From positions 558,001-622,000 of the forward strand of contig NZ_PVZV01000006.1 in the NCBI RefSeq assembly GCF_002995495.1: a stretch of DNA of 64,000 bases, read 5' to 3'. The translations under genes were made by a program, and so were the position numbers. Below the pieces are notes generated by a model that saw only the letters and a program-made list of their open reading frames with translations, had not been told where the DNA came from and made no database searches. The number at the start of each line of letters is the position of its first letter. Position 1 is the stretch's first letter. Positions 19,482 through 28,117 of this stretch are shown here, piece by piece. The stretch comes from Actinocorallia populi. GTDB taxonomy: Bacteria > Actinomycetota > Actinomycetes > Streptosporangiales > Streptosporangiaceae.

Positions 19482-20462
19482 TCAGGCGGGCTGCGGGACG
19501 AGGTCGCGCAGGCGGGAGTCGAGTTCGCCGCTGTAGAAGTCCATGAAGCCGTCGGGGTCGGGACCGGCGTTCTGCATCACGAGGTGGTCGAAGCCGGCGT
19601 CGACGAAGGGCTGGGCCACCTCGAGGAAGCGGGACGGGTCGGAGCCGCAGGCGAACTTCTCCAGGATGTCCTCTTCGCGCACCGTGGTGCTGGCGGCGTC
19701 GAAGTTGGCCGGGTTGGGCAGTTCGCTCATCACCTTCCAGCCGGTCAGCGCCCAGCGGGAGGTCTCCCACGCGGCCCGGGCCGCGGTGTGCTCGTCGGGG
19801 GCCCAGGCCATGGGGACCTCGGCGTAGCGCGGGCCCTCGCCTCCGGCCTCGCGGTACTTCTCGACGAGCTTCTTCTTGGGTTCGGTGGAGAAGATGCCGT
19901 CGCCGAGTTCGGCGGCGAGCCTGGCCGCCTGGGCCCCGCCCGCGGCCACCGCGATCGGCGGAGGCTCGTCGGGCAGGTCGAACACCCTGGCGTCCTCGAT
20001 CTGGAGGTGCTCGCCCTGGTAGGAGTGGTAACCACCCTTCCAGAGCAGCCGGATGATCTCCAGGGCCTCGCGCATCATGTCCTGGCGGCCCTGCACCGAA
20101 TGCGGGAACCCCGGCCCGACGACGTGCTCGTTCAGCCGCTCCCCGGAGCCGATCCCCAGCGTGAAGCGCCCGTCGGACAGCAGCGCCAGCGTCGCCGCCG
20201 CCTGCGCGATGATCGCCGGGTGGTAGCGGACGGTCGGGCAGGTCACGCCGGTGGCCAGCCCGATGCGCTCGGTCCTGGCGGCGATGGCGCCCAGCACCGT
20301 CCAGGCGAACGGCGAGTGCCCCTGCTCGTCCAGCCACGGGTGGAAGTGATCGCTGATCTCCACGAAGTCGAAGCCGGCCTCCTCGGCCCGCACCGCCTGC
20401 CGCACCAGCTCCTTGGGGCCGAATCCCTCGGCCATGAGCTTGTACCCGATCTTCATCGCCAC
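19482..20462 (-). CDS. F420-dependent LLM class oxidoreductase (G6PDH-related family)
   Basis: 326 residues of the luciferase-like monooxygenase fold. Family blocks are MKIGYKLMAEGF at the start, GFDFVEISDHFHPWL, RIGLATGVTCPTVRYHPAI and LGIGSGERLNEHVVG, matching the actinobacterial F420-dependent glucose-6-phosphate dehydrogenase-like group. Expected cofactor is F420; substrate is not known, and true Fgd enzymes differ in phosphate-binding residues, so I do not call it G6PDH. Cytoplasmic. The start may be ATG 20462 or the in-frame ATG two codons later (MKIGYK). It is followed on the same strand by nothing for 80 bp, and preceded by the MBL hydrolase gene with 75 bp between. Confidence 0.88.
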   Translation of the reverse strand: MAMKIGYKLMAEGFGPKELVRQAVRAEEAGFDFVEISDHFHPWLDEQGHSPFAWTVLGAIAARTERIGLATGVTCPTVRYHPAIIAQAAATLALLSDGRFTLGIGSGERLNEHVVGPGFPHSVQGRQDMMREALEIIRLLWKGGYHSYQGEHLQIEDARVFDLPDEPPPIAVAAGGAQAARLAAELGDGIFSTEPKKKLVEKYREAGGEGPRYAEVPMAWAPDEHTAARAAWETSRWALTGWKVMSELPNPANFDAASTTVREEDILEKFACGSDPSRFLEVAQPFVDAGFDHLVMQNAGPDPDGFMDFYSGELDSRLRDLVPQPA

Positions 20463-20537: not shown

Positions 20538-21368
20538 TCAGCGGTGCGCCCTGCCGGTCCGCTGCCGCCGGGCGAGCAGCTGGGTGCCGCCCCGGTCGAC
20601 ACGCAGGAGCCGGTCGTGCAGCCCGCGGCGGCCGAGCTCCCGCTCGAAGTCCGACAGCGGAGAACGGAACACGGTGTAGTCGTCGTAGTGGACGGGAACG
20701 ACGGTGGCGCAGTCGATCGTCTCCAGCCAGAGCGCGCCCTGACGCCCGTTCATGCTGGCGGGGATCAGGCCCAGCAGCCGGGTCCCGCCCAGGTGGACGA
20801 TGCCCGCGTCGATGTCCGGGTGGCGGCGCCGGATCTCGGCGAGCCCGCCGTACAGGAGCGTGTCGCCGCTGATGTACAGGCGCAGCTCCGGCTCGCCGCC
20901 CCGGGGGCCGAACTCCAGCAGGGAACCCATGACGGGCGGCGGCAGGCGGTACAGCGGCCCCGGCGCGTGCCGTCCGGGCATGGCGGTGACGCGCACCTGG
21001 TGGTCCTGCTTGGTGAGGACCTCGGAGTTCCAGGTGCGCAGCCCCTCGGCCTGGCGGAAGCCCCTCTTGCGCAGGGCGCGCGAGGCGGCCGGCGTGGTCA
21101 GGACGGGCAGGCGGCGGTCCAGGCGCCGCTCGGCCACCCCGTCCCAGTGGTCCCCGTGCAGATGCGACAGGATGATCCCGTCCAGCTCGGGAAGGTCCTC
21201 CACCCGTACGGCGGGATCCTTCAGCCGCTTGCTGGTCAGCCCGTACCCCAGATAGGCCCGCTGCCCCTTCCTGATGAAGTTCGGATCGGTGAGCAGCGTG
21301 AACGGCCCGTACCGGATGATCGTCGTGGCGTTCCCCACGAAGGTCAGTGTCGCCGCTTCCACAGCCAT
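20538..21368 (-). CDS. MBL-fold metallo-hydrolase (UlaG/RomA-like)
   Basis: 276 residues. LSHLHGDHWDGVAERRLDR supplies the HxHxDH zinc motif; earlier FVGNATTIIRYGPFTLLTDP and later LRLYISGDTLL (second-shell Asp) and IVPVHYDDYTVF (C-terminal His) fit the UlaG/NAPE-PLD-like lactonase branch. Cytoplasmic; likely a lactonase or phosphodiesterase, substrate unknown. AAGGGGG lies shortly before ATG 21368. A short hairpin (CTCCC-TTTTC-GGGAG) lies between the end of the flavoprotein gene and this start, which may separate the two units. Confidence 0.85.
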   Translation of the reverse strand: MAVEAATLTFVGNATTIIRYGPFTLLTDPNFIRKGQRAYLGYGLTSKRLKDPAVRVEDLPELDGIILSHLHGDHWDGVAERRLDRRLPVLTTPAASRALRKRGFRQAEGLRTWNSEVLTKQDHQVRVTAMPGRHAPGPLYRLPPPVMGSLLEFGPRGGEPELRLYISGDTLLYGGLAEIRRRHPDIDAGIVHLGGTRLLGLIPASMNGRQGALWLETIDCATVVPVHYDDYTVFRSPLSDFERELGRRGLHDRLLRVDRGGTQLLARRQRTGRAHR

Positions 21369-21415: not shown

Positions 21416-24082
21416 TCATGCGCTCCCGGCGAGGGCGCGGCGGGCGTAGGCGCGGACATCGGCGTCGGGGTCCTTCAAAGCCCTGGTCAGGGCTTCCGCA
21501 CGCGCCGGCGCGGGGGTGTGCGCGGCCAGGGCGATGACGGCTGCTTTGCGCACGTCCAGGTGGGGATCGTCCAGGGCGCCGATGAGCGCACCGGTCGTGC
21601 CGGGGCCCGCGGCGGTGAGCGCCGTGGCCGCGCCCGCGCGGACTTCCCAGGACGGATCCGACAGGGCGGGGACGGCCAGGGAGGGAGCGCCGTCCAGGGA
21701 GGCGAACGCCTTGAAGGCCGCAGCGCGTACCAGCGGATCGAGATCCGCGGCCAGGATCGTCAGGACGGCGGCGGCTTCGGGGCGGGCCAGGTGGCCGAGG
21801 CCCGCGGCTACGGTGACCCGCACCTCGCGGGAGGTGTCGGAGGCCGCTTGCGAGACGGCCTTGACATCGTCCAGGGAGACCAGCCCGCGGACGGCCTGGA
21901 GCCGGACGCGGTGGTCGTCGTCCCGCAGAGCGGCGGCGAACAGGGCGGTACCACCCAGGCGCAAGGCACGCAGCACGTCCAGAACGGCGGCACGCACGAC
22001 CGGGTCGGAGTACGGCTTCGTCAATGCGTCGGCGAGTTCGGTGCTCGGCGGGATGACCTCGACGAGTTCGCGCAGCGCGGTGGCCGCGGCGTGCCGTACC
22101 GAGGCGTGCGCGTCGCCGAGCGCGTCGACCAGCGCGGCCGCGAACCCTTCCGGGACCACTTCGGTGAGCGTGGCGACGGCAGCGCGCCGCACCTTCGGAT
22201 CGGGATCGGCCAGGTAGGGAACGATGTCGGCGGTACCGGGAGCGGATTCGGCCATGCGCAGCAGTTCCAGGATGCGGGGCGAACGAGCTGCCGCCGACAT
22301 GCCGCCTCCACCGGCGGAAGCCCCGGCCGAAGCCGTGTACTCCATCGGAGGCGCTGTCTCCAGCACCGTCCGCTCGATGCCCTCCGGCACGATGAAACCG
22401 TCCACCTCAACCCGGTAGGGATGCACCGGGACCTTCACGAACTCCATGTGCCCGTCCTCGCGACGCCGCACGTTCAGGTGCGAGAACCAGGAGACGTCAT
22501 CTCGTCCAGGCAGGTCGGCGCGGTCGTGGTACAGCCCCCAGCGGCTCTCGGTGCGTACCAGAGAGGCACGGGCGGCCAGTTCGGCGCAGTCACGGATGAA
22601 GGTGACCTCGACGCAGCGCATCAGCTCGTGCGGGGTCCGCGCGCCCATCGCGGCGATTTCACCTGACATCCGCACGAACGCCTCCAGCGCCAGCTCCAGC
22701 TTCGCGCCGGTCTTGGGCGGGGCCACGTAGTCGTTGACGAATCGGCGCAGCTTGTACTCCACCTGCGGCTGCGGCGGCCCGTCGGGGTTGCGCAGCGGAC
22801 GGTAGACCAGCTCGTGGGCGGCGGTGATCTGCGCTTCGTCCGGCTCGCCGTGCCGGAACGTCGCGGCGGCGTTCTCCCCCGCCAGCTCACCGAACACGAA
22901 GGCGCCGATCATGTAGTTGTGCGGCACGCACGCCAGGTCTCCCGCCGCGTACAGGCCGGGCACGGTGGTGCGGGCGTGCTCGTCGACCCACACCCCGGAC
23001 GCCGAATGCCCGCCGCACAAACCGATCTCGGAGATGTGCATCTCGATGTCGTGGGTGCGGTAGTCGTGGCCGCGTCCGGCGTGGAAGGTGCCGCGGGTGG
23101 GCCGTTCGGTGGTGTGCAGGACGTCCTCGAGCCGGGAGAGCGTCTCGTCCGGCAGGTGGGTGGTCTTGAGGTAGATCGGGCCGCGTGCCGAGTCGATCTC
23201 CCGTTTGACCTCGGCCATCATCTGGCCGGACCAGTAGTCGCAGTCGACGAACCGCTCGCCGCGGTTGTTGACCTGGTAGCCGCCGAACGGATTGGCGACG
23301 TAGGCGCAGGCCGGTCCGTTGTAGTCCTTGATGAGCGGGTTGATCTGGAAGCATTCCAGACCGCTGAGCTCGGCTCCGGCGTGGTAGGCCATCGCGTATC
23401 CGTCGCCGGCGTTGGCGGGGTTCTCGTACGTGCCGTACAGGTAGCCGGAGGCGGGCAGGCCGAGCCGCCCGCACGGCCCCGTCGCCAGGATGACGGCCCC
23501 CGCGCGCACCACGACGAACTCCCCGGTGCGGGTGTTGAATCCCGCCGCGCCGACCGCACGTCCGCCGGACGTCAGGACACGCACCGGCATCACCCGGTTC
23601 TCGATCCGCACCCGCTCGCGAATGTCCTTGCGGCGCAGCACCCGGTAGAGCACCTTCTTGACGTCCTTGCCCTCGGGCATGGGCAGCACGTAGGAGCCCG
23701 ACCGGTGCACGCGCCGCACCGCGTATTCGCCGTGCTCGTCCTTCTCGAACTTGACGCCGTAGCCCTCCAGCCGTTCGACCATGGCGTATCCGCGGGTGGC
23801 CGTCTGCCAGACGGTCCGCTGGTCGACGATGCCGTCGTTGGCGCGGGTGATCTCCGTGACGTAGTCCTCGGGGGTGGCCATGCCGGGGATGACGGCGTTG
23901 TTGACGCCGTCCATGCCCATGGCCAGCGCCCCGGAGTGCCGCACATGCGCCTTCTCCAGCAGCAGGACCTGTGCTCCGTGCTCGGCGGCGGTGATGGCCG
24001 CCATGGTCCCGGCGGTCCCTCCGCCGACGACGAGGACGTCGCAGGCCAGTTCGGTCCGCTCCGACGGTGCGGGGATCTGCAT
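21416..24082 (-). CDS. AprA/fumarate reductase-like flavoprotein fused to C-terminal HEAT repeats
   Basis: 888 residues. Residues 14-585 are an FAD-dependent reductase/dehydrogenase of the succinate dehydrogenase/fumarate reductase/APS reductase alpha superfamily: Rossmann GGGTAGT at about 20-26, AMGMDGVNNAVIPG, GLYAAGDLACVPHNYMIGAF, and a C-terminal helical domain with LELALEAFVRMSGEIAAMGA. A Gly/Ala linker (about 586-600) leads to about eight HEAT repeats with the (D/P)DPxVRxAA pattern (SDPVVRAAVLDV, DDHRVRLQAVRG, ALSDPSWEVRAGAA). The longer open frame begins inside the ATPase gene; I start at ATG 24082, which overlaps the ATPase stop by one base (TGATG). Last gene of the GntR-ferredoxin-ABC operon. 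Substrate unknown; the dedicated ferredoxin may be its electron partner, as AprB is for AprA. Confidence 0.85.
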   Translation of the reverse strand: MQIPAPSERTELACDVLVVGGGTAGTMAAITAAEHGAQVLLLEKAHVRHSGALAMGMDGVNNAVIPGMATPEDYVTEITRANDGIVDQRTVWQTATRGYAMVERLEGYGVKFEKDEHGEYAVRRVHRSGSYVLPMPEGKDVKKVLYRVLRRKDIRERVRIENRVMPVRVLTSGGRAVGAAGFNTRTGEFVVVRAGAVILATGPCGRLGLPASGYLYGTYENPANAGDGYAMAYHAGAELSGLECFQINPLIKDYNGPACAYVANPFGGYQVNNRGERFVDCDYWSGQMMAEVKREIDSARGPIYLKTTHLPDETLSRLEDVLHTTERPTRGTFHAGRGHDYRTHDIEMHISEIGLCGGHSASGVWVDEHARTTVPGLYAAGDLACVPHNYMIGAFVFGELAGENAAATFRHGEPDEAQITAAHELVYRPLRNPDGPPQPQVEYKLRRFVNDYVAPPKTGAKLELALEAFVRMSGEIAAMGARTPHELMRCVEVTFIRDCAELAARASLVRTESRWGLYHDRADLPGRDDVSWFSHLNVRRREDGHMEFVKVPVHPYRVEVDGFIVPEGIERTVLETAPPMEYTASAGASAGGGGMSAAARSPRILELLRMAESAPGTADIVPYLADPDPKVRRAAVATLTEVVPEGFAAALVDALGDAHASVRHAAATALRELVEVIPPSTELADALTKPYSDPVVRAAVLDVLRALRLGGTALFAAALRDDDHRVRLQAVRGLVSLDDVKAVSQAASDTSREVRVTVAAGLGHLARPEAAAVLTILAADLDPLVRAAAFKAFASLDGAPSLAVPALSDPSWEVRAGAATALTAAGPGTTGALIGALDDPHLDVRKAAVIALAAHTPAPARAEALTRALKDPDADVRAYARRALAGSA

Positions 24083-24813
24083 CAGGTGGTCTCCAGGGTC
24101 TGGGCGCCGAGCGCGGCCAGTACGCGGGCGCGCAGCGCGGGGTCGACGGTCGTACGGGGATGCGGCACCTCGACGAGGTCGGCGAGCCCTCCGCCGCCCA
24201 GGACGGCGACGCGGTCGCCGAGCAGGAGCGCCTCGTCCACGTCGTGCGTGACGAACACGACCGTGGTGCTGGCGTTCCACACGTCGGTGAGCAGCCGCTG
24301 CATCTCGTGGCGGGTCTGGGCGTCCAGCGCGCCGAACGGCTCGTCCATGAGGACGGCGCGCGGCTGCCCGGCGAGGGTCCGGGCGAGCTGGACGCGCTGG
24401 CGCTGCCCGCCGGACAGGTCGCGCGGCAGCCGCCTCTCCAGGCCGGCCAGGCCGACGCGGGCCAGCCAGCCGTCGGCGCGGGCGTTGCGTTCGGCTCGCG
24501 GCACCCGCCGGATCGCCAGCGGCAGGGCGACGTTCGCGCGGGCGCTGCGCCAGGGCAGCAGCGCGTCCTCCTGGAACATCAGGGCCCGGTCGGCGGACGT
24601 GCCGCGTACCGGCCGTCCGTCGGCGAGCAGCTCGCCCGAGGCCACGGGCAGCAACCCGGCCAGGGCGCGCAGCAGGGTGGACTTGCCGCAGCCGGACGAA
24701 CCCGCAACGGCGAGGATCTCGCCCGCCGCGACGTCCAGGTCCAGGCCGCCCAGGACGGGACTGCCGGCACGGGTCAGGGAAAGGTTCTTGATCTGGAAGG
24801 AGAGTGCGTTCAT
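24082..24813 (-). CDS. ABC importer ATPase (SsuB/TauB/NrtD type)
   Basis: 243 residues with all ABC motifs: Walker A GSSGCGKST, Q-loop FQEDALLPWRSARANV, signature LSGGQRQRVQLAR, Walker B AVLMDEPFGALD, and H-loop VTHDVDEAL. It energises the importer formed with the permease at 24810 and lipoprotein at 25571. Its ATG overlaps the permease stop by 4 bp, and its stop overlaps the flavoprotein start by 1 bp, so translation is tightly coupled and stoichiometric. Confidence 0.94.
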   Translation of the reverse strand: MNALSFQIKNLSLTRAGSPVLGGLDLDVAAGEILAVAGSSGCGKSTLLRALAGLLPVASGELLADGRPVRGTSADRALMFQEDALLPWRSARANVALPLAIRRVPRAERNARADGWLARVGLAGLERRLPRDLSGGQRQRVQLARTLAGQPRAVLMDEPFGALDAQTRHEMQRLLTDVWNASTTVVFVTHDVDEALLLGDRVAVLGGGGLADLVEVPHPRTTVDPALRARVLAALGAQTLETT

Positions 24814-25574
24814 CGACGCGCCTCCGCGGGGAGCCAGCGGGTGGCGCGGCGGCCGAGCAGCTCCACCGCGCCGGAGGTGAGGAAGCCCAGCAGCCCGATC
24901 GTGATGATCCCGACGAGCACCCCGGGGTAGTCGACGATCGTGTAGGACGCCCAGGTGCGGTAGCCGACGCCGAACTGGCCGGAGATCATCTCGGCGGAGA
25001 TGAGGCAGATCCAGGCCACTCCCATGCCGACCGACAGGCCGCCGAAGACGCCCGGCAGGATCCCGGGCAGCAGTACGCCGGCCAGCACCCGGACCCGGCC
25101 GCCGCCCAGGGTGCGCACCGCGTCCTCCCAGACGGGCGGCAGCGCCCGCACCGCGTGCCGTGTCGAGACCATGATCGGGAAGAAGGCCGCGGCGAACGTG
25201 ATGAACACGATGCCCTGCTCGCTCTGCGGGAACAGCAGGATCGCGATCGGCACCAGCGCGATCGCCGGAACGGGGCGGGCCAGCTCGAACAGGGGCAGCA
25301 GCAGGTCCCCCGCCCGGCGGGAACGCGCCACGAGCGTGCCCAGCAGGCCGCCGAAGAGGGCGGCGAGCACGAACCCCGTGAGGATGCGCACCAGGCTCTG
25401 GGCCAGATCCTGGTAGTAGACGCCGGTGGTGAGCTGGCGGCCGAACTCCGCCAGCACGTCGCCGGGGCCGGGGAACCGGTCGAAGCGCAGCAGGAACACC
25501 ACGTCGTGCTCGGTCAACAGGTACCACAGGCCGAGGGCCGCGAGCGGGGAACCGGCGCGCAGCAGGATCCTCAT
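24810..25574 (-). CDS. ABC importer permease (SsuC/TauC type)
   Basis: 254 residues, about six membrane helices, with the EAA loop region WEDAVRTLGGGRVRVLAGVL and the family C-terminal VDYPGVLVGIITIGLLGFLTSGAVELLGRR. It belongs to the nitrate/sulfonate/taurine importer permease group. It sits between the binding lipoprotein (4-bp overlap at 25571-25574) and the ATPase (4-bp overlap). No other permease is present, so it is expected to work as a homodimer. Confidence 0.93.
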   Translation of the reverse strand: MRILLRAGSPLAALGLWYLLTEHDVVFLLRFDRFPGPGDVLAEFGRQLTTGVYYQDLAQSLVRILTGFVLAALFGGLLGTLVARSRRAGDLLLPLFELARPVPAIALVPIAILLFPQSEQGIVFITFAAAFFPIMVSTRHAVRALPPVWEDAVRTLGGGRVRVLAGVLLPGILPGVFGGLSVGMGVAWICLISAEMISGQFGVGYRTWASYTIVDYPGVLVGIITIGLLGFLTSGAVELLGRRATRWLPAEARR

Positions 25575-26932
25575 GCCTCTTTCACCGCCTCTTCGTAGGA
25601 GACGGGCACGGTTCCGGAGTGGGAGGCGGCGTAGGCGTCGGCGTTCTCCTGCGTGGCGAACGGCAGGAAGTCGTCGCCGTCACGGAGCCAGACACTGTGG
25701 TCGGCGAACCATCGGGTGCCAGTGAGCGCGTCGGGTACGTAGGCGGCGCGGATCTTCCCGCCGGAGTCCCGTACCTCGCGGACGGCCTTCAGCAGCCCGT
25801 CGGGGTCGGCGGCGGGACGGGTTTCCCGTTCGCCGTCCAGCCACAGTTCACCGGCCTTGGCGGGGTCGCCGGGAAGGGCTGCCCCATTGGTGGTCTCGGC
25901 GACGTCGGCGTCGTAGGCCGGGCCGTAGGCGTCGCGTATGTAGGTGTCGTTGAAGAACGAAGGGACGTCCAGGGGCTTGTCCAGGACGCCGATCGACTTC
26001 AGGAACGGGACGTCCTGCTCGAACGCCTCACGTTGGGACGGCTTGATCGTCACGTCGAAGGTGGAGATCCCGTTGGGGCCGTTGTAGAGGTAGACGGTCT
26101 CGGGTGCCAGTCCGGTCTCCTTCGCGACGGACTCGGCGGCCTCGAGCGGGTGCTCGTGCAGGTAGGCGGTGGCCTGGATCTGCGCCTTGAGGAACGCCTG
26201 GAGCACGTCTGCGCTGTCCTCGGCGAACTTCTGACGGACGACGGTGCCGTGGAAGGTCGGCACGTTCAGGGAACCGCCGTCGTACAGCAGGCGTGCCTGC
26301 CCGGCCTGGACGAGCTGGCCCGGCCAGGCGACGAACTGGGCGAGCGCGGCGACGCCGCCGGACTGCAGCGCCGAGGCCCCGACCGAGGGCTGCTGGTTCT
26401 CGGTCCTGATGTCCTTGGCGGCGTCCAGGCCCAGCTTGTCCAGTGCCTGGACGAGGGTGCCGTGCCCGGCTGAGCCGACGCTGGCCGAGACGTTCCGGCC
26501 CTTGAGGTCGCGCAGGGTGCGGGCCGTGGAGTCCGGGGCGACGACGACGCCGTTGAGCGCGCCCCGCAGGTTGTATCCGGTGACGGCGACCAGTTCGGTG
26601 CGGGCGTCTCCGCCCTGGGCCTGGGCACGGGAGCCGTTGATGAGCAGCGGGTAGTCGCCCATCGAACCGATGTCGATCTTTCCGGCGAGCATCTCGGCGG
26701 TGATGGGCGCGCCGGACTCGTAGTCCTGCCAGACGACCTGGTAGCGGTCGCCGAGGTTCTTCTCGAAGTAGCCGAGCGAGCGCAGCAGCGTGCCGGCGGT
26801 CACGGTGTTGATGGTCTTGGACTGGTAGCCGACCACGACCTTCGTCCTGCCCTCGGACGCCTCCCCCGCGACGGTGCAGGCCGAGGCCGCCAGAGCGGGC
26901 ACGAGGAGGAGGGAAAGCGCGAGTCTCTTCAT
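25571..26932 (-). CDS. ABC importer substrate-binding lipoprotein (NMT1/SsuA-like)
   Basis: 453 residues: type II signal peptide with lipobox LAASAC and modified Cys19, then a periplasmic-binding fold of the NMT1/THI5/aliphatic-sulfonate group: KVVVGYQSKTINTVTAGTLL, MGDYPLLINGSRAQAQGGDA, VSASVGSAGHGTLVQALDKL. At 453 residues it is longer than usual for SsuA-type proteins (about 320), with a C-terminal extension of about 110 residues (DALTGTRWFADHSVWLRDGD) that may be a second small domain. The ligand is not evident: nitrate, sulfonate, taurine, pyrimidine precursors and aromatic acids are all served by this family. It follows the ferredoxin gene by 12 bp. Confidence 0.88.
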   Translation of the reverse strand: MKRLALSLLLVPALAASACTVAGEASEGRTKVVVGYQSKTINTVTAGTLLRSLGYFEKNLGDRYQVVWQDYESGAPITAEMLAGKIDIGSMGDYPLLINGSRAQAQGGDARTELVAVTGYNLRGALNGVVVAPDSTARTLRDLKGRNVSASVGSAGHGTLVQALDKLGLDAAKDIRTENQQPSVGASALQSGGVAALAQFVAWPGQLVQAGQARLLYDGGSLNVPTFHGTVVRQKFAEDSADVLQAFLKAQIQATAYLHEHPLEAAESVAKETGLAPETVYLYNGPNGISTFDVTIKPSQREAFEQDVPFLKSIGVLDKPLDVPSFFNDTYIRDAYGPAYDADVAETTNGAALPGDPAKAGELWLDGERETRPAADPDGLLKAVREVRDSGGKIRAAYVPDALTGTRWFADHSVWLRDGDDFLPFATQENADAYAASHSGTVPVSYEEAVKEA

Positions 26933-26944
26933 CGGTGGAGCCTT

Positions 26945-27172
26945 CTATCGCAGCAGGTAGGGAATGTCGACGGTGACGGCGCCCGTGGGGCAGCGGTCGG
27001 CGCACGGGCCGCAGTACCAGCACTCGTCCACGTACATGTGGGCCTTGCCGGTCTCGGGGTCCAGGGCCAGGGAGTCCAACGGGCATACGTCGATGCAGAG
27101 GGTGCAGCCCTCGATGCAGAGGGCGGCGTCGACGGTGACCGGCACGTCCTGCCGGTGGGGGACGAGAGGCAT
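26945..27172 (-). CDS. Two-cluster 4Fe-4S ferredoxin
   Basis: 75 residues with two CxxCxxCxxxCP-type motifs: CIEGCTLCIDVCP (cluster 1) and CWYCGPCADRCP (cluster 2), the second followed by TGAVTVDIPYL. It resembles the N-terminal ferredoxin core of AprB, the partner of AprA, but lacks AprB's C-terminal tail. The operon context, with an AprA-like flavoprotein, suggests that it shuttles electrons to or from that enzyme. First structural gene after the regulator: its start codon abuts the GntR stop (27172/27173). Confidence 0.93.
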   Translation of the reverse strand: MPLVPHRQDVPVTVDAALCIEGCTLCIDVCPLDSLALDPETGKAHMYVDECWYCGPCADRCPTGAVTVDIPYLLR

Positions 27173-27919
27173 CTACAGGCTCCTGTGAAGTGTGCCGCGC
27201 AGGGTGAGCCGGTCGCCGCGGAAGCGGATGAACTCCAGGTCGACCGGACGGGCGTCGGCGAGGTGGGTGAGCCGCTCGACCAGCAGCGTCGCGGTGCCGC
27301 GGGGGGCTTCGAGGACGGCGGCGGAGTGCGGGTCGGCGTTGACGGCCTCGACGGTGAGCTCGGCTCGGCCGAGAGGGCCCTTCAGCCGTTCGATCAGCAC
27401 GAAGACGTCCTCGTGGACGAGGTCCTCCTCCAGCAGGGCACGGCCCAGCTCCGGCTCGAGGTAGGTCTGGTCGAGGCTGAGCGGCACGCCGTTCAGACGC
27501 CGCAGCCGCTCGAGGTGGACCACGGGCGTGTCGTCGGGCAGTGCGAGCCGCGAGGTGATCGCGGGCGGCGGGGTGATGAGCCCGCAGGCCCGTATCTCGT
27601 TGACGATCACGCCGTGCTCGTGGAGGGTCTCGCCCAGCCCGAGGAGCCGGTGCAGCCCGTGCGGCACCTTGCCCGCGGCCGTGACGACGGTCCCGACGCC
27701 CGGCAGCCGCTCGAGGAGCCCCTCCGCGCGCAGGAGGTCCAGCGCGTCGCGGACGGCGTTGCGGGTCGTGCCGAACTCGGCGACGAGCCGCTCCTCCCTG
27801 GGCAGCACGCCGCTCTCGAACGCGCCCCGCCGGATCTGGCAGCGGAGCACGTCCGCCACCTGCCGGGCGCGGTCGGCCCGCAGCCTCCGCCCGTCACTGA
27901 GGTCGTATGCGCTGGTCAC
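27173..27919 (-). CDS. GntR family regulator (UTRA, HutC subfamily)
   Basis: 248 residues. The GntR winged helix is at about 10-80 (VADVLRCQIRRGAFESGVLP, EFGTTRNAVRDALDLLRAEG), followed by a UTRA ligand domain (about 95-245, with VVHLERLRRLNGVPLSLDQT). Start is GTG 27919 with the candidate operator CCTACCAAGTAGG 9 bp upstream. It heads the operon with ferredoxin, ABC importer and flavoprotein, so it probably represses the whole operon and is released by the imported substrate or a product. Confidence 0.92.
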   Translation of the reverse strand: MTSAYDLSDGRRLRADRARQVADVLRCQIRRGAFESGVLPREERLVAEFGTTRNAVRDALDLLRAEGLLERLPGVGTVVTAAGKVPHGLHRLLGLGETLHEHGVIVNEIRACGLITPPPAITSRLALPDDTPVVHLERLRRLNGVPLSLDQTYLEPELGRALLEEDLVHEDVFVLIERLKGPLGRAELTVEAVNADPHSAAVLEAPRGTATLLVERLTHLADARPVDLEFIRFRGDRLTLRGTLHRSL

Positions 27920-27927
27920 GGCTAAAG

Positions 27928-27940
27928 CCTACCAAGTAGG
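27928..27940. promoter_or_regulatory. Candidate GntR operator of the flavoprotein operon
   Basis: CCTAC-CAA-GTAGG inverted repeat directly before the GTG start of the GntR gene, with a further GTAGG-like tetramer after it (GTAGGTAGG). Position fits autorepression. GntR/HutC operators are often longer (GTnnTAnAC type), so this is tentative. Confidence 0.45.
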
Positions 27941-28117
27941 TAGGGAAACTAAGATAACGGGAGGGTCACGCCACCCCGCACCCCCGCCCGGCCAGCACCT
28001 TCACCGGAAACCACCCCACTTCCGCCACCCTCACGGGGCCGTACGACCGGGAGCGGGCGGTCTCGGTGGAGGGGGCGAGAGGCGGTCTCGGCTCGAGGCC
28101 GGTCGGTCTTCTCCCGT

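Follow-up and report, generated by a model that had tools for sequence, protein, structure and literature searches.

A candidate sulfonate uptake and redox operon with a HEAT-fused flavoprotein in Actinocorallia populi

The 64,000-nucleotide (nt) stretch of Actinocorallia populi DNA analyzed here (the window; contig NZ_PVZV01000006.1, positions 558,001 to 622,000, within an 8.25-Mb genome) carries six minus-strand genes that form a single unit at 21416-27919 and encode a GntR-type regulator, a ferredoxin, a three-gene importer, and a flavoprotein fused to HEAT repeats. Our preferred reading, to which we assign a probability of about one half, is that this operon imports a sulfonate-like compound, which a ferredoxin-linked flavoenzyme then processes. 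The enzyme core, consisting of flavoprotein, ferredoxin, and HEAT protein, occurs in three bacterial phyla, frequently near sulfur genes, and we rate the architecture as a variant of the AprBA/Asf kind. Under the proposed mechanism, a NosL-tailed, SsuA-type lipoprotein would serve with a permease and an ATPase in the uptake of the sulfonate-like compound, and the GntR/UTRA protein would control the whole set. The flavin adenine dinucleotide (FAD) protein would act in the cell on the imported compound or on its first product. Two electrons would pass between this protein and the 2x[4Fe-4S] ferredoxin via a conserved Trp, as in the adenosine 5'-phosphosulfate (APS) and 3'-phosphoadenosine 5'-phosphosulfate (PAPS) reductases, probably in the reductive direction and with sulfite released. 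The HEAT array, which is fused to the flavoprotein in Actinobacteria, might tether the ferredoxin to the flavoprotein or aid iron-sulfur (Fe-S) cluster loading.

The operon and its conservation in Actinobacteria

A first-pass annotation, made from the letters of this DNA alone, had described six tightly packed genes, and all six were found, with neighbors that abut, overlap by 1 to 4 nt, or, in one case, lie 12 nt apart. The gene for the GntR/UTRA regulator (27173-27919, minus strand like all six; Pfam scan) abuts that for a 75-residue 2x[4Fe-4S] ferredoxin with its Trp in an ECWYC motif (26945-27172), and the 12-nt gap separates the latter from the gene for a 453-residue substrate-binding lipoprotein with an SsuA/TauA fold and a C-terminal NosL-like domain (25571-26932). 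This gene overlaps by 4 nt the gene for an ATP-binding cassette (ABC) permease of the SsuC/TauC/NtrB type (24810-25574), assigned from Pfam matches and from NCBIfam matches that all lie below their cut-offs, and another 4-nt overlap leads to an ABC ATPase of the SsuB/TauB type (24082-24813). The last gene, which shares 1 nt with the ATPase gene (TGATG), encodes the 888-residue FAD flavoprotein with its C-terminal HEAT array (21416-24082; NCBIfam NF010374/PRK13800).

Of 396 genomes sampled across the phylum, 12 (the window genome among them) carry the HEAT-fused flavoprotein family, as do 33 of 150 genomes of the window's own family, 30 of which exceed the family cut-off; the second-best match within the window genome has only 30% identity (86 bits). 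The order GntR-ferredoxin-binding protein-permease-ATPase-flavoprotein is kept in all 11 relatives compared from two other families and, within the window's family, in 16 of 20 genomes, and all six gene types are present in 13 of 13 loci when the 11 relatives are taken together with the window and a Tsukamurella plasmid. This recurrent order is what the first-pass annotation had suggested checking, and it supports the claim that the genes form one uptake-plus-redox unit. The linkage of flavoprotein and ABC genes held in most relatives, but the importer is dispensable. Among the four same-family exceptions (loci L160, L164, L169, and L174), the ferredoxin gene adjoins the flavoprotein gene with no importer in between in L160 and L174, a match to the binding protein, limited to its first 97 residues, precedes the flavoprotein in L164, and the ATPase and flavoprotein are retained in L169. 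The redox part can thus persist without the importer, as L160, L164, and L174 (3 of the 20 family relatives) retain GntR, ferredoxin, and flavoprotein with the importer lost or cut down. In the flanks of the 13 compared loci, antisense open reading frames to the operon aside, no gene is common to more than five.

Upstream of the GntR gene, the element GTGGCGCAAY-N6-GTTAY is found in one perfect copy each in 10 of the 16 cluster-bearing family genomes searched, and all 10 perfect matches sit at the cluster. Allowing one mismatch gave 21 hits, some of them elsewhere, compared with 5 for the reversed pattern as a control. Even with one mismatch allowed, the element is not matched in the window genome; a diverged copy of this promoter-side element can be picked out by eye at 27953-27975 (minus strand). 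As a candidate sulfur regulon motif, the element was rejected, since with all perfect hits at the cluster it names no wider regulon. Several relatives have a second GGTGGCGGA-type sequence further upstream, and a scan of seven relatives other than the window at Rfam gathering cut-offs found no riboswitch. Directly before the GntR start codon lies the inverted repeat CCTACC-N5-GGTAGG (27928-27944, no strand), a possible GntR operator. Directly downstream of the operon, genes for a luciferase-like (LLM) oxidoreductase (19482-20462) and a metallo-beta-lactamase-fold protein (20538-21368) follow on the minus strand; neither is among the flanking genes common to at least three of the compared actinobacterial relatives.

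The enzyme core

The flavoprotein has Pfam matches to FAD_binding_2, Succ_DH_flav_C, and HEAT, with a catalytic part at residues ~1-565 and the HEAT-type matches at ~625-887. It scores 1552.7 bits against the NCBIfam model PRK13800 (NF010374; cut-off 1196) over residues 1-885, and its N-terminal part scores 869.4 bits against NF006131/PRK08275 (cut-off 587). The 898 positions of the PRK13800 model already span the HEAT part, so that the architecture, taken at first to be without a known assignment, belongs to a named family, although the label of both models is generic ("fumarate reductase/succinate dehydrogenase flavoprotein subunit"). Among open-licence papers, we found no function for the PRK13800/PRK08275 family; the accessible part of one proteome paper (PMC8557817) does not mention fumarate reductase, and the accessible parts of three others (PMC3506598, PMC9694294, and PMC4070957) offered neither a primer nor a sequence that could be used.

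Among chains of solved structure, the nearest to the flavoprotein belongs to the AprA-type PAPS reductase from M. thermolithotrophicus (MtPAPSR; 8a8o, E 3.8e-58), which is also the top match in the fold search and bears out the earlier placement of the flavoprotein in the AprA/fumarate reductase superfamily. The comparison with AprA itself holds at the level of the superfamily, but the active site differs. Arg265 and Trp234 are active-site residues of AprA (A. fulgidus numbering), and alignment with the A. fulgidus protein places Leu250 and Tyr219 of the flavoprotein at these positions, Leu and Tyr being invariant there in 36 of 36 rows; Asn74 is kept, as is a GGH motif aligned with MtPAPSR, and the residues aligned with the AprA substrate site are invariant among the rows compared. 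The score against the AprA model (TIGR02061) is 130.5 bits, against a cut-off of 641.75.

The two cluster motifs of the ferredoxin read CxxxCxxCxxxCP and CxxCxxCxxxCP, and the protein scores 30.2 bits against the AprB model (TIGR02060), whose cut-off is 135.65. It had been described as a separate protein with no AprB tail, and the C-terminal tail of an AprB-like protein aligned with it is indeed absent. The Trp of the AprB electron path is present, with ECW.C in 6 of 6 rows, the AprB-like protein included; in the mechanism described for MtPAPSR, the corresponding Trp42 has a role on the path of electrons between cluster and FAD (PMC10322725, in the part available). Like AprBA and MtPAPSR, the window system combines FAD and 2x[4Fe-4S] subunits with a Trp between them and with Asn74 and GGH kept; it differs in the replacement of Arg265 and Trp234, in a ferredoxin without the AprB-like tail, and in the addition of HEAT repeats.

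The HEAT extension of the flavoprotein (21419-22297, minus strand) was compared with separate proteins encoded elsewhere. Cyanobacterial and proteobacterial loci were taken as the best 80 of at least 586 stretches matching a Nostoc query (41 Cyanobacteria and 39 Proteobacteria, judged by record titles), which makes the sampling uneven. The flavoprotein of these phyla is unfused and 56-63% identical to the actinobacterial one, and its core partners lie nearby in nearly all loci, the ferredoxin in 76 of 80 and a separate HEAT gene in 75 of 80. The five loci lacking HEAT are L107 and L117, where the DNA ends just past the flavoprotein gene, and L067, L094, and L145. Of 52 plasmid records matched at E 1e-40 or below, 2 cover the HEAT region. 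Each of the 13 annotated plasmid loci inspected that have an unfused flavoprotein also lists a separate HEAT gene; a Variovorax record without annotation stands outside this count. In a profile comparison, the fused extension and the separate HEAT proteins align in register over 285 columns (E 3.8e-31, score 222; shifted alignments as a control score 116 and 110), and the Nostoc HEAT protein finds the flavoprotein tail first in the window genome (49 and 34 bits), followed by one other locus at 23.7 bits. The HEAT part is thus real and conserved rather than a degraded tail. The array of about eight repeats in the first-pass annotation is present but probably longer than stated, as the predicted model has 19 helices of at least 8 residues at 602-887, which is nearer nine or ten repeats, at moderate confidence. 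All 17 fused rows group into one clade of a 63-row tree (98/100; 97% of 200 bootstrap trees), which, within this sample, would fit a single flavoprotein-HEAT fusion in Actinobacteria.

Importer, neighboring genes, and electron supply

The ATPase has the taurine ATPase as its top NCBIfam model (208.8 bits, below the cut-off of 357), and the binding protein scores 142.8 bits against SsuA (TIGR01728; cut-off 163.5). The nearest folds to its predicted model (mean predicted local distance difference test score [pLDDT] 87.2) are TauA and SsuA, with pyrimidine and nitrate binders lower in the Foldseek list. The extra C-terminal region of ~110 residues noted at the outset is a domain of its own in the model (361-452, block pLDDT 92-98), and by its sequence profile it is NosL-like (residues ~355-453; 25574-25870, minus strand; Pfam and PDB profile matches). 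Pfam NosL was matched at E<=0.01 in the C-terminal domains of 28 of 29 family members; at the PF05573 gathering cut-off of 24, the window copy (17 bits) falls short, as does relative L116, and relatives L124, L085, and L105 pass. Searched against the PDB, the domain profile also picks up NosL structures (7og7, E 5.4e-7). No NosL was among the best 50 Foldseek matches with the whole binding-protein model as the query, and no Cys, His, or Met that could serve as a copper ligand is invariant, or close to invariant, in the 29-row domain alignment.

Within at most 10 kb on each side of the core in the 80 loci, we counted SsuD in 9, an SrpI encapsulin with a cysteine desulfurase and CysE in 8, YeiH in 12, and TauE in 5, with at least one of these four sulfur markers in 28. 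The family names rest on one scanned example each for SsuD, the encapsulin, its cargo, and CysE, on PF03601 for YeiH, and on record annotation for TauE. As a control, the 33 genomes searched for the 39 proteobacterial loci include 12 with one encapsulin copy each, and 8 of these 12 copies flank the cluster. They come from Acinetobacter (4), Paraburkholderia/Burkholderia (3), and one betaproteobacterial metagenome-assembled genome, so the linkage amounts to about three independent cases. A family 2A encapsulin is found with its cysteine desulfurase cargo and CysE no further than 10 kb from the core in L118, L123, L125, L126, L130, L134, L136, and L141; upregulation of an SrpI-type encapsulin in sulfur starvation has been reported (PMC8346489, in the part available). 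Similarly, YeiH is held by 12 of the 29 genomes searched for 30 of the 41 cyanobacterial loci, and in 10 of them a copy lies in the flank. In both Prochlorococcus loci, YeiH directly follows the importer ATPase gene; these loci (L105 and L106), from single-cell genomes and a sulfate-rich habitat, contain the core, the importer, an amidase gene, and YeiH.

Genes that could supply electrons also lie near some cores. FdxA and a GltD-like NAD(P)H oxidoreductase, of which the A. caldus copy was domain-scanned, are found in 7 of the 39 proteobacterial loci and FdxA alone in one more, and a Methylobacterium locus has FdxA with a ferredoxin-NADP reductase. These neighbors suggest that electrons run towards the flavoprotein, i.e., that it catalyzes a reduction. 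The GltD-like proteins beside FdxA are ~1150-1200 residues long (L116:17000-20596 and L063:10574-14035, the latter PRK06567-like but under the cut-off), and several are in loci of sulfur oxidizers.

A second recurring group of neighbors points to Fe-S handling. An Mrp gene lies near the core in 35 of the 41 cyanobacterial loci, the one scanned having FSCA and ParA domains, and DUF971 lies near it in 29 of the 39 proteobacterial loci, with CxCxxC in all 29 matches. Together with the HEAT protein, Mrp or DUF971 hints at a dedicated Fe-S delivery partner for the core. In this it resembles the cytosolic Fe-S targeting system (NBP35 and MMS19), of which MMS19 is a HEAT protein, but HEAT repeats are generic and the likeness to MMS19 is one of repeat type. 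It also recalls HCF101, which, in the part of the source available, is described as having FSCA, ParA, and DUF971 modules (PMC7980591). Unlike what this likeness would lead one to expect, 13 of the 34 core-linked Mrp proteins longer than 300 residues have no CxxC (21 have it), which makes cluster binding doubtful for those 13. This lowers the odds of a bolder scheme, in which an AprA-type flavoprotein, a 2x[4Fe-4S] ferredoxin, and a HEAT adaptor would make up a three-part desulfonation machine for O2-free reductive sulfonate cleavage, with HEAT as an MMS19-like adaptor that passes Fe-S clusters from Mrp/DUF971 to the enzyme and is cis-fused to this client in Actinobacteria; we regard this scheme as quite improbable.

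Rival readings and relation to known systems

The closest functional precedent, and the nearest with a phenotype, is asfRABC of Pseudomonas putida S-313, which, in the accessible parts of the sources, is needed for aryl-sulfonate sulfur and likewise places a reductase, a ferredoxin, and a binding protein around sulfonate sulfur (PMC4267179, PMC2864759). No biochemical role had been named for such a combination in the first-pass annotation, and this precedent supplies one in print for a similar combination. In the window operon, too, flavoprotein, ferredoxin, and binding protein are encoded together; the published regulator of the Asf cluster, which is active under sulfate limitation, is of the LysR type, versus GntR/UTRA here. 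In Cupriavidus metallidurans CH34, AsfA/AsfB are given as Rmet_4334/5 (PMC2864759, in the part available). The CH34 megaplasmid encodes no close relative of the window flavoprotein. On this replicon, where we take Rmet_4334/5 to be placed, the sole flavoprotein-ferredoxin pair found lies at 928 kb (L205) and is probably AsfAB; a candidate region near 794 kb has no ferredoxin-type motif. The probable AsfA is a same-superfamily flavoprotein adjoining a 2x[4Fe-4S] ferredoxin, but it shares only 30% identity with the window flavoprotein over 241 residues and falls outside the clade of the latter, on long branches. Three annotated AsfA-like operons differ further in that they have no annotated HEAT or DUF971 gene, and two binding proteins after the pair, at ~355 residues, are too short for the NosL-like part, judged by length only. 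In Azospirillum and Paracoccus, AsfA-like pairs are followed by genes for ABC binding proteins, of the SsuA type or otherwise. Two Sinorhizobium plasmids (L150 and the S. americanum megaplasmid NZ_CP013110.1) carry an AsfA-like flavoprotein gene no more than ~1 kb away from one of the PRK08275 type; the AsfA-like gene of S. fredii was recovered as three separate matches and may not be intact. By analogy, the window operon may work like Asf; neither orthology to AsfA nor membership in that system is established.

A role proposed for AsfA/AsfB, in the accessible parts of the sources, is that of an electron chain feeding a monooxygenase (PMC4267179, PMC2864759), and the flavoprotein and ferredoxin of the window could similarly feed an SsuD-type enzyme that cleaves the C-S bond. 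The 9 loci with SsuD fit this, as does an ssuDCB-flavoprotein arrangement, with SsuD directly upstream, in L134 and probably L117. However, 71 of the 80 loci have no SsuD in the flanks examined, the six-gene unit itself contains no monooxygenase (the luciferase-like gene is downstream of it in the window), and by Pfam the flavoprotein has just one dinucleotide-binding fold, the N-terminal FAD Rossmann, with no NAD(P)H domain matched beyond it. The invariant residues at the AprA substrate-site positions are, moreover, what one would predict for an enzyme that has a substrate of its own, and we consider the electron chain unlikely, if still plausible. Membership in the fumarate reductase/succinate dehydrogenase superfamily would also suit an oxidative dehydrogenase that, in the style of succinate dehydrogenase, acts on the carbon skeleton of a sulfonate and passes electrons to the ferredoxin, but the NAD(P)H-linked, reductase-like genes by some cores suggest flow in the other direction, making this decidedly doubtful. 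An alternative assimilatory APS or PAPS reductase is the most improbable proposal: the closest solved relative is such an enzyme and the ferredoxin Trp is held in common, yet the substitutions at Arg265 and Trp234 and the scores far under the AprA and AprB cut-offs led us to reject this identity. The linkage to an SsuA/TauA-type importer also speaks against it, and the annotated plasmid neighborhoods showed no gene for sulfate activation, though no search was aimed at one.

The substrate itself had been guessed to be a sulfonate, a nitrogen compound, or an aromatic acid, and sulfonate is now favored among the three because of the sulfur neighbors and the TauA/SsuA fold, with the other two less so. 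NMT1-type binding proteins serve many ligands, pyrimidine and nitrate binders do appear lower in the fold list, and amidases lie near some loci, which leaves some room for a non-sulfur compound such as nitrate, a pyrimidine, or an aromatic acid; given the top folds and a clustering of sulfur markers that was controlled for encapsulin and YeiH, we hold this to be very unlikely.

Several points weigh against the sulfonate reading that we prefer. None of the four sulfur markers is found in 52 of the 80 loci, those that are found come from few lineages, and the controls cover encapsulin and YeiH, not SsuD or TauE. No shared sulfur gene was seen in the flanks of the 13 actinobacterial operons. Sulfur-oxidizing and marine hosts are hardly short of sulfur, and a role in sulfur supply fails to explain the presence of the core in them. 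An AprA-like N5-attack mechanism appears doubtful for the flavoprotein, as judged from its sequence, because Arg265 is absent. The predicted flavoprotein model is poor (mean pLDDT 66, and below 50 for 240-362) and was used for the fold search and helix count only; the structure modeling proposed at the outset thus allowed the HEAT helices to be counted, but the FAD part was too weak for a pocket to be read. Finally, any role of the NosL-like and HEAT parts is conjectural.

Known bacterial routes to sulfonate sulfur are mostly oxygen-dependent. A review counts sulfonates among the major pools of organic sulfur in soil. Against this background, a ferredoxin-linked flavoenzyme that retains 56-63% identity from Actinobacteria to Prochlorococcus under a generic label would add both a route and a marker gene, and its fusion to HEAT repeats would make it possible to test directly if HEAT proteins of bacteria direct Fe-S clusters to individual clients.

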